Below, piece by piece: positions 3,542-21,625 of a stretch of DNA of 22,684 bases. The notes under the pieces were generated by a model, which worked only from the letters and a program-made list of their open reading frames with translations, searched no databases and had not been told where the DNA came from. The stretch is from a virus. Location of the stretch: IMG/VR virus record IMGVR_UViG_3300037278_000678, positions 1-22,684 of that record. The stretch is one strand, 5' to 3'. The position numbers were made by a program, and so were the translations under genes. Numbering within the stretch: position 1 is the first letter of the stretch; the number at the start of each line of letters is the position of its first letter.

Positions 3542-3786
3542 TCCGCAATCCTCACTTCACTTCCGTCATCACGCAACGCAACTATCTGCGACGAAGAATC
3601 GGTCATTACTGTTGAGTGGACCTTGTAGTTGCATCCAGTTTCTTTGTTCTTGCAGACGTACTCCAGATGATCGACAACCTGTTTCTGTCCCCTGCGGCCC
3701 ATCACTACCTTCGGCTTCAAGACGGTTCCGCAACTATGACACACGAGATTGGCCGCGACTAACGGCGAAAGGTCCGGTATTGACAT
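3538..3786 (-). CDS. Small zinc-ribbon protein
   Basis: An 82-residue protein with two Cys pairs: CHSCG (Cys16, Cys19) and a second set at Cys45 and Cys52 (YVCKNKETGC), a typical zinc-ribbon spacing. The frame is open further upstream to 3888. I choose the ATG at 3786 because GAGGAG lies about seven bases before it, while the two earlier ATGs sit almost on top of that site. With this start the gene still overlaps the 3' end of peptide deformylase by 53 bases. Its stop overlaps the next start as ATGA. No function is recognised. Such ribbons bind nucleic acid or protein, and many in this window look similar. Confidence 0.75.
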   Translation of the reverse strand: MSIPDLSPLVAANLVCHSCGTVLKPKVVMGRRGQKQVVDHLEYVCKNKETGCNYKVHSTVMTDSSSQIVALRDDGSEVRIAE

Positions 3787-4348
3787 GCCCATTCTCCTCA
3801 TTCCTTCTTGTTTGTGCTCTGCGCATTGCTTTCCAATTGTGAAATCGTTCCAGAACCTCTTTCCTGCGCCGCTCTGGAACCCTGTCAACGAAAAATGTTC
3901 CCGTCAGATGATCGAGTTCATGTTGAACGATTCTCGCCACCGATCCCCTAAACGTCAACTTCTTTCGCTCGTATGGAGTTTCTGCTAGAGAAGCCTCAAC
4001 GTCGACGATTTCAAGCCGTGGCACCATGCACTCATTTCCCGAAGGCGGCAAACTTAAACAGCCCTCCGGTTCCTTAATCTCTTTTCCGTACAACCTAGTG
4101 ATCTCCGGGTTCACTAAACCAATGACTATTCCGTGACTCCTGCCGATCAATACGAATTGCTTGAAGCATCCTATCTGCGGAGCCGCCAATCCCAATCCAT
4201 CTGCCTTTCGCATCACTTCGATCATGTACTCGAATAATTTCGGAATCTCCGGCCACTCAGCCTCTTCGACAGGCTTCGCAAGGATGTTGTTCATCTCTGG
4301 CCCATAAATAGAGAGCCTAAAATTCCTCTGAAAGTACATTTCCCTCAC
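3734..4348 (-). CDS. def: Peptide deformylase
   Basis: Removes the formyl group from the initiator Met of new proteins and needs a metal ion, usually Fe2+. All three family motifs are visible in order: GLGLAAPQIG (residues 51-60), EGCLSLP (95-101, metal ligand Cys97) and QHELDHLTG (142-150, His143, Glu144, His147). At 204 residues it is longer than most phage deformylases. The extra C-terminal 40 or so residues are basic, and the last part overlaps the next gene. The start is GTG at 4348, overlapping the preceding stop as GTGA; an ATG at 4339 behind GGTGAGG is an equally reasonable start. Phages use this enzyme probably to keep up with deformylation of their own proteins, as inferred for cyanophage enzymes. 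Confidence 0.93.
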   Translation of the reverse strand: MREMYFQRNFRLSIYGPEMNNILAKPVEEAEWPEIPKLFEYMIEVMRKADGLGLAAPQIGCFKQFVLIGRSHGIVIGLVNPEITRLYGKEIKEPEGCLSLPPSGNECMVPRLEIVDVEASLAETPYERKKLTFRGSVARIVQHELDHLTGTFFVDRVPERRRKEVLERFHNWKAMRRAQTRRNEENGHVNTGPFAVSRGQSRVS

Positions 4349-6791: not shown

Positions 6792-7025
6792 TTACACTAA
6801 CTCTTCAACTCGACTCACATTCGACAACGCAGCGAACTGAATCAACTTACCATCCTCCACGCGGAACAAATCCACATATTCTGTCCCGCACGACCAGAAG
6901 TGACACTGCCACTCCTCCGGTGCATTATTGTGAAATGTCACCTTCAACCTGATCGGTCTCACCGCTTCCGTATTCAATATCCCTCCAACCTTTCTGCCTA
7001 CATCCACATCATTGCACATCTTCAC
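6792..7025 (-). CDS. Hypothetical protein (77 aa), start uncertain
   Basis: Not recognised. The core RLKVTFHNNAPEEWQCHFWS and EYVDLFRVEDGKLIQFA reads as a small beta protein with several aromatic residues. Three starts compete: GTG at 7025, ATG at 7019, and a TTG at 6977 directly behind GGAGGG. The two upstream starts lack a clear ribosome binding site, so the shorter form (62 residues) is possible. This is the first gene of the leftward packaging series. The AT-rich stretch before it (7026-7110) probably holds its promoter. Confidence 0.55.
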   Translation of the reverse strand: MKMCNDVDVGRKVGGILNTEAVRPIRLKVTFHNNAPEEWQCHFWSCGTEYVDLFRVEDGKLIQFAALSNVSRVEELV

Positions 7026-7461
7026 GCTTTTGTGTTGACCAACTCAAATACACAACTTTTCAAAACTTCAAAACTGCTTACATCATTTCAACTTCTTGGA
7101 TTTTGAAAATCTGTTCGCTGGACCAGTCGCGTAGCGACCGGACCCCCACCCCACCCCCTTGCGCCGGGTCCGTTGCGGCGTGCGTGCTGGGCGGTGGGCG
7201 CTGGCCGTGGCAGGGCGGCGGGGCAGGGGCAGGGCAGGCGGGAGGGGCTGGGCCAAGCTGCGGAAGGCGAAGCAGAGGCAGGGTACCGGGACCGATGGAA
7301 GGCTCAAGAATGGCACCGGGTGGCGTCAATCATTAGAAGTGGGCGCGGTGAAGCTGGTACAGGGTGCCATGAGGCAGGCGAAACTGCCATGCTGTAGTAT
7401 GTCCAGCTTGGCTGCGATGCGTCCTAGAGGCGCTGGTCAGGCCGTTTCAGGACACAACAAA
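7026..7461. other. Gap without a supported gene; AT-rich side and G/C-run side
   Basis: About 435 bases with no gene I can support. The left part (7026-7110) is AT-rich with short repeats such as TTCAAAAC in tandem and the palindromes TTTTCAAAA and ATTTTGAAAAT, and is a fair place for a promoter of the leftward series. The right part (7130-7330) is very rich in G and C, with C5-A-C4-A-C5 near 7143-7159 and many G-runs after 7189. Open frames here are Pro/Arg/Gly-rich, have no ribosome binding site and are best read as composition artefacts. Confidence 0.6.
7213..7252 (+). other. G-quadruplex-capable G-run tract
   Basis: Seven runs of three or four G (starting at 7213, 7220, 7226, 7232, 7240, 7244 and 7250) with loops of one to five bases on the + strand. 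A further set of three G-runs is on the opposite strand at 7143-7159. The sequence fits the standard G-quadruplex rule. Folding is predicted, not shown. Confidence 0.65.
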
Positions 7462-7481
7462 GCCCCAGACGTATCTGGGGC
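7462..7481 (-). terminator. Leftward intrinsic terminator after the 60-aa gene
   Basis: On the minus strand an eight-base-pair stem GCCCCAGA / TCTGGGGC encloses a TACG loop (UACG in RNA, UNCG class) and is followed by TTTGTTGT. It lies 20 bases after the stop at 7502 and closes the modular middle region. Confidence 0.8.
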
Positions 7482-7501
7482 CAGTGTTGCCGATCCTGCC
7501 G

Positions 7502-7684
7502 CTAGTCGAGGTAGAGCCGGGTATTGATGTTCTTGAACTGGTCTTTGCCGTTGTAGGTTCCCATGTACATCCAGCCTCCGGCGTAGTTCCATTCCCCATC
7601 TTTGCCGCTGAGCCTGCCTGCTGCTATCGCCTCTTCAAATGCCTGCCTGCTGTCCTTGAATACTGGTGCTGTAGTGGTTGCCAT
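7502..7684 (-). CDS. Small hypothetical protein (60 aa)
   Basis: Not recognised. The N-terminal half is helical (SRQAFEEAIAAGRLSG), followed by an aromatic, Gly-rich stretch (EWNYAGGWMYMGTYNGKDQF). That pattern, a loop of Gly/Tyr/Trp after a helix, suggests a small binding protein. The ATG has GGAGGGAAC before it, and a perfect hairpin (7695-7708) stands just upstream of the ribosome binding site. It has its own terminator downstream and another upstream, so it appears to be a one-gene transcription unit. Confidence 0.75.
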   Translation of the reverse strand: MATTTAPVFKDSRQAFEEAIAAGRLSGKDGEWNYAGGWMYMGTYNGKDQFKNINTRLYLD

Positions 7685-8711: not shown

Positions 8712-9413
8712 CTACCAGACAAAGCCGAAATGCTCGACGGCTGCGCGAAACGCCACCAACAACGCGGGGAGCCTCGCCTCCAGCCGCTCTTTCAATCCGG
8801 GCGCTGTCAGGTCTTCGTCTGTTGCTTCGGGCCACACTGCCGAACTGCGGGCGAAGTCTAGCTGTCTTTCCTTCCCATCGCCTACGATCCAGACCGGCTC
8901 CCAAGTTGCCGTGAGTGATTCCTGTGGTTGTTCATTGGACTCGCGCCAATCGGTATGGCCGATTTTCACTATCTCACCATCGGAACCGCGAATGATCCGC
9001 TCCCAGACGGGCAGCTTCGTCTTGCCGTTGCGGAGTTGCCGCTTCTCGCCTTTGAGGAGTCCTTTGTAGTCGCGGTCGCTGGCATGGTAGACGGTATTTG
9101 CAACGTAGTGCATGGGGCCGTCAGAACTGCACAGATGCCACTTGATGAACGGCTCAAGCCCAGGAAAAGCTGCTGCAACTTCGTCATGGAGACAGCCGCC
9201 AGCTCCGCCACCCTTGCGGCGGTCAACCGGGCGAATATCCGCTGTGATACTGAAAGTGTTATGCCCATTGCCACGCTCGTCGTCATAGCGGACTTCTGCA
9301 ACGATCACAGAAGGCTCACCGTAGTACGTTATGCGTTTGGGGCCAAACTTCGCCCGCTGCCGTTTCGCTGTCTCGCTTTGCGTTGTGATTGCCAAAGCCG
9401 CTACGCTCCCCAT
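8712..9413 (-). CDS. Conserved phage protein of unknown function (233 aa)
   Basis: A basic N-terminus is followed by strands and then the block GGCLHDEVAAAFPGLEPF and KWHLCSSDGPMHYVANTVYH (about residues 93-131). That block is one I have seen in phage proteins of unknown role, with conserved His, Asp and Trp residues. The C-terminal part is helical and acidic. The His/Asp-rich centre would suit a metal site, but I see no known enzyme signature. The ATG at 9413 has GGAGGG eight bases upstream. It follows three membrane microproteins in one unit and ends at the UUCG terminator. Confidence 0.75.
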   Translation of the reverse strand: MGSVAALAITTQSETAKRQRAKFGPKRITYYGEPSVIVAEVRYDDERGNGHNTFSITADIRPVDRRKGGGAGGCLHDEVAAAFPGLEPFIKWHLCSSDGPMHYVANTVYHASDRDYKGLLKGEKRQLRNGKTKLPVWERIIRGSDGEIVKIGHTDWRESNEQPQESLTATWEPVWIVGDGKERQLDFARSSAVWPEATDEDLTAPGLKERLEARLPALLVAFRAAVEHFGFVW

Positions 9414-9446: not shown

Positions 9447-9575
9447 TTACCATGCTACCAACTCGTAGATTGCTGCATACACCAGCAACCCAAACGCTAC
9501 CGCTCCGGCAAACCCTTTTACCTGTCGCCAGGTCTTCGGGTCGCCGTTCACTAGGTTGTAAAGCCATTCATCCAT
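9447..9575 (-). CDS. Membrane microprotein (42 aa)
   Basis: Starts MDEWLYNLVNGDPKTW and has one membrane segment from about residue 22 to 41 (VAFGLLVYAAIYELVAW at the end). The frame stays open upstream to 9701, but the ATG at 9575 overlaps the stop of the previous microprotein (TGATG), which decides the start. With the two microproteins before it, it forms an overlapping set read from one promoter. Small membrane proteins of this kind could be holin-like, superinfection-related or host-modulating; nothing here distinguishes these. Confidence 0.65.
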   Translation of the reverse strand: MDEWLYNLVNGDPKTWRQVKGFAGAVAFGLLVYAAIYELVAW

Positions 9576-9712
9576 CACAGCACCAGCCCGATCAAAAACA
9601 TTATTCCGGCTGCAACGATCCACAACAACCTGTACATGGCGCGGCTTTGCGTCCACTTCGCCCAGGCCAGGAATACCGCTAGAGCGATTACCAAACCCCA
9701 CGGAACTACCAT
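9575..9712 (-). CDS. Membrane microprotein (45 aa)
   Basis: Found by reading the gap between larger genes. It begins MVVPWGLVIALAVFLAWAKW and has two hydrophobic segments (about residues 3-18 and 28-45) separated by a short basic stretch with Arg and Gln, so it may be a helical hairpin. The ATG at 9712 lies inside the last codons of the preceding microprotein (seven-base overlap), and the stop overlaps the next ATG. The tight coupling and the all-hydrophobic reading favour a real gene. Confidence 0.6.
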   Translation of the reverse strand: MVVPWGLVIALAVFLAWAKWTQSRAMYRLLWIVAAGIMFLIGLVL

Positions 9713-9792
9713 ACAGCCACCTTTCCCAGCCGCCACGATACGAAAACCGCCGCAGCAGCTACCCCAACAAAGAACCCAATCACGTAGGCCAT
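9706..9792 (-). CDS. Membrane microprotein (28 aa)
   Basis: Begins MAYVIGFFVGVAAAAVFVSW and ends with a basic-hydrophobic LGKVAVW, so it is a single membrane helix with a positively charged end. The ATG at 9792 has GGAGGG five bases before it, and the promoter 9810-9838 stands directly upstream. It is the first of three overlapping membrane microproteins. The good ribosome binding site and promoter make chance unlikely despite the length. Confidence 0.6.
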   Translation of the reverse strand: MAYVIGFFVGVAAAAVFVSWRLGKVAVW

Positions 9793-9809
9793 AAGCCCTC
9801 CATGACCCA

Positions 9810-9838
9810 ACTATGCCCCCAAACCGCTAAGGCTTCAA
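9810..9838 (-). promoter_or_regulatory. Leftward sigma70-like promoter for the microprotein unit
   Basis: Minus strand: -35 TTGAAG (9833-9838), 17-base spacer with CTTAGCGG, -10 CATAGT (9810-9815), then TGGG and the ribosome binding site. The -35 box overlaps the stop codon of the upstream gene, so there is no room for a terminator between them. Confidence 0.65.
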
Positions 9839-10179
9839 GGGGTCACTACAATCCGCCATCTTTGGCACTGCGAATTGAAGCAGGCTACGCCACCAGTTAT
9901 CGCCTCCATTGGACGTAAGCAGGCTCGACAAACACGCCTTGGTTTCTCGATCTCTGCCGGCTTCGGACTCTCGTGATCTATCGGTCTCTCTACCCTCGCC
10001 GGCTTCGGACCTCGCGCAATAATCATTTTCTCGGCCTTCGGACTCTCGACCTTACCTGAGTTCCAATGGCTTGACCTGCACTTCCGGCTCGGACATCGTG
10101 CCGGATCACTCGCGCTCTCAGGTATCCAAGTCCACCCGCAAACATCACATTTCCACGCTTCTATCGTCACTCTCGCCAT
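9835..10179 (-). CDS. Double zinc-ribbon protein
   Basis: A 114-residue protein with two separate ribbons. The first is rubredoxin-like: CDVCGWTWIP (Cys11, Cys14) with CPSRKC (Cys29, Cys34), followed by RSSHWN. The second is CRAC (Cys84, Cys87) with CFNSQC (Cys100, Cys105). A Pro/Lys/Glu linker joins them. The first ribbon type, ending CPSRKC then a Trp, is common in small bacterial and phage proteins of unknown role. The ATG at 10179 lies at the end of a duplicated element (10177-10219). The ribosome binding site AGAGG is unusually far, about 12 bases, so initiation may be controlled. Confidence 0.75.
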   Translation of the reverse strand: MARVTIEAWKCDVCGWTWIPESASDPARCPSRKCRSSHWNSGKVESPKAEKMIIARGPKPARVERPIDHESPKPAEIEKPRRVCRACLRPMEAITGGVACFNSQCQRWRIVVTP

Positions 10180-21332: not shown

Positions 21333-21443
21333 ATGAACGCGCTGATTATGTGGTGGGGCGTACCTACAATGCTCCAGATCGTGCTCTGCATCGTAATTAT
21401 CACTCGTGAAGTGTGGACGGGCGGAAGGAAGTGGAAGCCATGA
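21333..21443 (+). CDS. Membrane microprotein (36 aa)
   Basis: First rightward gene. It begins MNALIMWWGVPTMLQIVLCI and has one membrane segment to about residue 23, then a basic end (REVWTGGRKWKP). The ATG has AAGGAAGG just before it (five to seven bases), and the stop overlaps the next ATG (ATGA). Both support a real gene despite its length. Confidence 0.6.
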   Translation: MNALIMWWGVPTMLQIVLCIVIITREVWTGGRKWKP

Positions 21444-21625
21444 CCCGCCCACGCATCACCGAATGGCCCTATGCCGATCCTGACCAGCAGGACGATCCGG
21501 TTCCCGACGTGCCGCTGATGGCCGCGCTGGTTGCGGTCGTGTGGTGGCTGCGCTGGTGGATCATGGCCGCTGTGGGAGTGGGCGTGGTGGTGTTTGGCGT
21601 GGTCTGGATTGCGGGGAGGATGTGA
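21440..21625 (+). CDS. Small membrane protein (61 aa)
   Basis: The N-terminal 25 residues are polar and acidic (PYADPDQQDDPVPDVP), followed by about 30 hydrophobic residues with many Trp and Val (LVAVVWWLRWWIMAAVGVGV and on), enough for one or two membrane passes. The ATG overlaps the previous stop, and the end overlaps the next start (TGATG). It is not recognised. With the preceding microprotein it forms a membrane pair at the head of the rightward genes. Confidence 0.65.
   Translation: MTRPRITEWPYADPDQQDDPVPDVPLMAALVAVVWWLRWWIMAAVGVGVVVFGVVWIAGRM

Follow-up and report, generated by a model that had tools for sequence, protein, structure and literature searches.

The question raised by this locus is whether a short gap in a phage genome, between a zinc-ribbon gene and the gene of a 233-aa protein, carries three membrane microproteins and, if so, what these might do in the host. 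The window, i.e. the whole stretch of DNA analysed, is a virus record of 22,684 bases from a tailed phage, whose large terminase subunit matches the PHROGs terminase families, its nearest annotated relatives being less than 30% identical. A DNA-level search of phage records with the window gave no match. The minus strand carries almost every recognisable gene, in the order ParB-like gene, phrog_1362, HTH regulator, numerous small genes, a peptide deformylase gene, a weak match to SprT-like proteins and, at the left end, the terminase; the cassette sits amid small accessory genes, between the regulators and ParB-like gene on one side and the terminase on the other. The phage-encoded peptide deformylase (3737-4348, minus strand; PHROG 2890, E 4e-25) is placed between the small genes and the terminase genes, and in a G+C-rich segment at 7025-7502 frames of low complexity overlap on the two strands, none of them convincing as a gene.

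Minus-strand positions 9792-9447 encode three short hydrophobic proteins, P1 of 28 aa (9792-9706), P2 of 45 aa (9712-9575) and P3 of 42 aa (9575-9447), located as described in the initial annotation between the zinc-ribbon gene upstream (114 aa, 9835-10179, minus strand) and the gene of the 233-aa phage protein downstream (8712-9413, minus strand). The proposal that every start overlaps the preceding stop applies to P2 (a 7-nt overlap with P1) and to P3 (a 1-nt overlap with P2, TGATG) but not to P1, which starts 42 nt past the stop of the zinc-ribbon gene. The downstream gene starts 33 nt past the end of P3 with a strong Shine-Dalgarno sequence of its own. Its product shares 37-53% identity with proteins in Pseudomonas, Vibrio, Achromobacter, Shewanella and Providencia phages and is weakly matched in Bacteroides phages.

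Dinucleotide shuffles of the 421-nt gap, scored for linked ORFs that each have 25 aa or more and a membrane-type stretch, yielded three linked ORFs in none of 4000 trials and two in 0.5%. With codon bias scored from a training set of eleven long window genes, the claimed frame came out top of six for P1, P2 and P3 (0.23, 0.19 and 0.25, respectively; 0.18-0.22 for the other clear genes). A diverged copy in the related phage L015 differs from the window by 11 substitutions within the cassette ORFs, with no indel, and all three frames, for which frame-breaking changes in relatives had been the proposed check, are intact. When 11 substitutions were placed at random, at least one frame was broken in 62% of the simulations, and residue changes averaged 8 against the 6 seen, six or fewer occurring in 16%, which gives mild support for coding constraint. 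One synonymous change falls in P1, four non-synonymous and one synonymous in P2, and two non-synonymous and three synonymous in P3; these 5 synonymous and 6 non-synonymous changes from a single informative copy are too few for a test of purifying selection, and for P2, with four of its five changes altering a residue, constraint on the exact sequence does not appear demonstrable. Two further copies (L002 and L003) are near-identical to the window here, with 2 changes in 7710 bases, and hence barely informative; one of these changes, at 9666, replaces A by V at P2 residue 16. Shuffles, codon bias and the diverged copy with intact frames together back three real, co-inherited and probably co-translated membrane microproteins.

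An alternative is that the ORFs are untranslated and the sequence is maintained for another reason, e.g. as a leader or regulatory RNA. This would agree with three ORFs that are all shorter than the usual gene-length cut-offs and have no database matches, and with a leader that folds somewhat better than its shuffles, but a chain that no shuffle reproduced, a best-of-six codon bias in every ORF and 11 substitutions of which none breaks a frame make it very improbable. The leader itself (9793-9842, minus strand) contains P1's ribosome binding site, GGAGGG, and is conserved with the cassette in L015. Two hairpins are predicted at 9772-9842 (minus strand), one of them over the P1 start codon (z -2.7, 2 of 200 shuffles equally stable) and one upstream (z -1.5); the sequence over the start is identical in L015 and hence carries no covariation information. 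A dedicated RNA element in the leader was considered and set aside, the hairpins being present but just mildly better than shuffles.

The initial annotation had further placed one promoter and one strong ribosome binding site at the head of the cassette. The promoter is unsupported: a scan gave no minus-strand sigma-70-like site of at least 9/12, the best readable candidate being TTGAAG-17-CATAGT with 8/12. The strong ribosome site was found, but the later genes are not devoid of sites, as predicted pairing with the 16S tail amounts to -9.8 kcal/mol for P1 (GGAGGG), a moderate -7.2 for P2 (AGGTGG) and a weak -5.6 for P3, compared with -10.0 for the 233-aa gene and with a median of -3.5 and a 5th percentile of -9.5 kcal/mol for the minus-strand ATGs of the window. 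We suggest that the cassette is transcribed within a long leftward (minus-strand) operon and that ribosomes would load at the strong site ahead of P1. As the anatomy indicates, P2 and P3 would then be reached by re-initiation at the overlapping stop-start codons, with the own site of P2 helping, and the three proteins are probably co-translated.

Hydropathy analysis bears out the description of the proteins as hydrophobic for all three, with best 17-residue Kyte-Doolittle windows of 2.4, 2.8 and 2.0 for P1, P2 and P3; "very hydrophobic" suits P1 and P2 (GRAVY 1.62 and 1.60) but overstates P3 (0.37), which has one helix and a charged N-terminal half. P1 has one predicted membrane helix (residues ~3-19) followed by the positive tail WRLGK, which by the positive-inside rule suggests an N-out/C-in orientation. 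In P2, two hydrophobic stretches flank the basic turn WAKWTQSRAMYR, and the same rule makes it probably a hairpin with a cytoplasmic turn, whereas AlphaFold2 run on two sequences modelled one long helix of residues 5-44 and not a hairpin (pLDDT 84, pTM 0.40). P3 combines a basic amphipathic N-terminal part with one predicted membrane helix, its model showing a short helix (3-9) and then a second one (13-40), with the basic part ahead of the membrane span (pLDDT 85). The small-xxx-small (GxxxG-like) motifs GFFVG in P1 and GFAGA and AVAFG in P3 are compatible with helix packing, yet such motifs are very common. The products would thus be expected to insert into the host inner membrane, P1 by one helix, P2 probably by a hairpin and P3 by one helix with an amphipathic foot.

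The borders of the cassette are visible in L015. The two phages are ~97% identical over the block 9840-9407 (minus strand), which runs from the stop of the zinc-ribbon gene to where the next gene starts. On one side of it the zinc-ribbon gene has strongly diverged, and on the other another ORF and a gene for a DUF7249 protein of 77 aa stand in place of the 233-aa gene; farther out the sequences are again ~98% identical. Since L015 keeps the cassette and its leader with both neighbours divergent or replaced, the cassette is a mosaic module of its own. In two other loci (L023 and L024, with a neighbour gene 67% identical), the place before the DUF7249 gene is occupied by a single 81-aa two-helix protein, and in L025 a conserved 70-aa gene directly follows the zinc-ribbon gene, with no membrane ORF between. 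Such differing contents are what one would expect if the slot serves swappable accessory genes. The L024 protein of 81 aa, with RAMxRxL shared between it and P2/P3, was tried as a homologue of these two, but shuffled sequences scored equally in ~8-18% of trials and the candidate was rejected.

Searches with P1-P3 of phage records, viral contigs and bacterial genomes retrieved only the near-identical copies L002 and L003 and the L015 copy, and no family, isolate-phage record or bacterial genome was matched in Pfam, PHROGs, phage records and bacterial genomes. A back-translated P3 pattern also matched in T4-type contigs of ~170 kb; the one examined (L125) was a chance match inside a longer protein, with no membrane stretch there. 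Within the reach of these searches the cassette proteins are new in sequence and ordinary in kind.

How ordinary the arrangement is was assessed in a survey of 842,589 bases, comprising the window and loci collected mostly via neighbouring genes and not for membrane proteins, apart from a few direct look-ups, with the L015 copies excluded. It contained 16 two-step chains of tiny membrane ORFs and one three-step chain, the present cassette, against 1.7 +/- 1.4 and 0.05 in twenty shuffles of the same DNA. Tandem tiny membrane ORFs in phage loci are thus ~ten-fold over shuffles; many of the pairs have good ribosome sites, and chance may account for a few that lie on the antisense strand. The DUF7249 gene has a single tiny membrane ORF abutting it in 10 of 56 loci (2 in the antisense control), some of these loci being near relatives, so that they are not ten independent cases. 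The ORFs directly preceding this gene range from 27 to 81 aa and are of unrelated sequence. The 77-aa DUF7249 protein itself (L015:3183-3416; loci L028-L107) is very widespread in viral contigs, with 190 loci. The window also holds a second overlapping pair of small membrane ORFs at 21333-21625 on the plus strand, at the divergent right end of the contig, which encode 36 aa (MNALIMWWGVPTMLQ...) and 61-70 aa (MTRPRITEWPYADPD...), with a AAGGAAGG-type ribosome site before the first.

The unrelated single ORFs beside DUF7249 genes, the unrelated pairs throughout the surveyed loci and the preponderance of residue-altering changes in P2 would all suit another explanation, namely that P1-P3 are translated but form no single machine, being independent, young or loosely useful peptides of a sort that phages easily gain and lose. 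Set against this are the retention of all three together in L015 despite the exchange of both neighbours and the overlap of the reading frames, and we regard the explanation as a real possibility, if on balance an unlikely one. The reading that we prefer, tentatively and at somewhat less than an even chance, takes the cassette for an exchangeable accessory module whose products are putative co-translated inner-membrane proteins that modulate the host envelope. The three proteins would most likely pack together and/or with a host membrane protein and alter its behaviour, and the putative role could be e.g. to block the entry of superinfecting DNA or to inhibit a host membrane protein. Envelope modulation is favoured because the module is missing in one relative, another membrane protein occupies the slot elsewhere, the setting is one of small accessory genes and no endolysin is recognised in the window. 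Known exclusion proteins or inhibitors gave no sequence match to P1-P3 in Pfam, PHROGs or phage records. A more specific version seems distinctly improbable, namely that P1-P3 (28, 45 and 42 aa) are a three-component membrane complex whose members are produced at a coupled ratio through a single ribosome entry site and pass between phages as one block, and that it works as a new minimal device for exclusion or host-membrane control of no known family.

The main rival to host-envelope modulation is that P1-P3 are holin-like lysis-timing proteins (e.g. holin, antiholin and accessory helix) which act late and depolarise or perforate the membrane. Lysis genes are commonly upstream of the terminase in lambdoid phages, P1 and P3 have GxxxG-like motifs and, by hydropathy and models, all three are small proteins with a membrane helix, as in holin-like cassettes. 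However, PHROGs recognised no endolysin in the window, on contigs that may be fragments, the relative L025 does without the cassette at this place, and to our knowledge the characterised holins are all larger than 28 and 42 aa. Neither Pfam nor PHROGs gave a holin-family match for P1-P3 up to E 1; three Pfam families of lysis enzymes (Phage_lysozyme, Amidase_2 and SLT) had no hits in either the window or the close relatives, these contigs being possibly fragments, and no lysis genes were recognised in the longer relatives, including among the best 25 of 57 families, where all contigs may likewise be fragments. Actinobacterial phages can carry, in their lysis cassettes, two to four membrane-helix genes in a row, whether or not lysB adjoins them (PMC9671378), and in Mycobacterium phages lysis was shown to be controlled by two holin-like genes of this sort (PMC13056207). 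Since lysis loci with three membrane genes in a cassette are on record (PMC9671378) and every contig may be a fragment, we retain the holin-like role as an alternative, and consider it quite unlikely.

Predictions of small phage genes number more than two million, and for most of them the function is unknown (review PMC11323111). The cassette is a clean case of genes that standard annotation drops, i.e. three frames of fewer than 50 codons that are statistically strong jointly and have no library relatives, and the survey suggests that tiny membrane genes recur side by side, and beside DUF7249 genes, well above chance. If the three proteins form one complex, they would make a tiny membrane device on which joint action by tandem phage microproteins could tractably be tested.

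Among known systems, the type of action favoured for the cassette is that of T4 Imm and P22 SieA, phage-encoded inner-membrane proteins that block DNA injection (review PMC11436027); these are single genes for larger proteins with no sequence match to the cassette, so that the resemblance is one of type only. The Gordonia phages Suerte and KappaFarmDelta share with it three consecutive small membrane-helix genes that are mutually unrelated in sequence, but theirs adjoin lysA/lysB and encode mostly larger proteins with two to four helices (PMC9671378), whereas the cassette encodes proteins of 28-45 aa with no lysis enzyme recognised nearby. Also comparable are tandem pairs in other phage loci (28+29 aa in L091, 31+30 aa in L084, 36+36 aa in L057 and 55+54 aa in L120) and the 60+51-aa pair of membrane ORFs in T4-type phages such as Citrobacter phage CF1, which are likewise adjacent or overlapping on the same strand with a membrane helix each, and differ in having two members, unrelated sequences and a hypothetical or unannotated status. 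With its genes on one strand, overlapping, each with a helix and in a chain above chance expectation, the cassette belongs to this descriptive class of tandem tiny phage membrane genes and is an extreme case of a widespread phage architecture.
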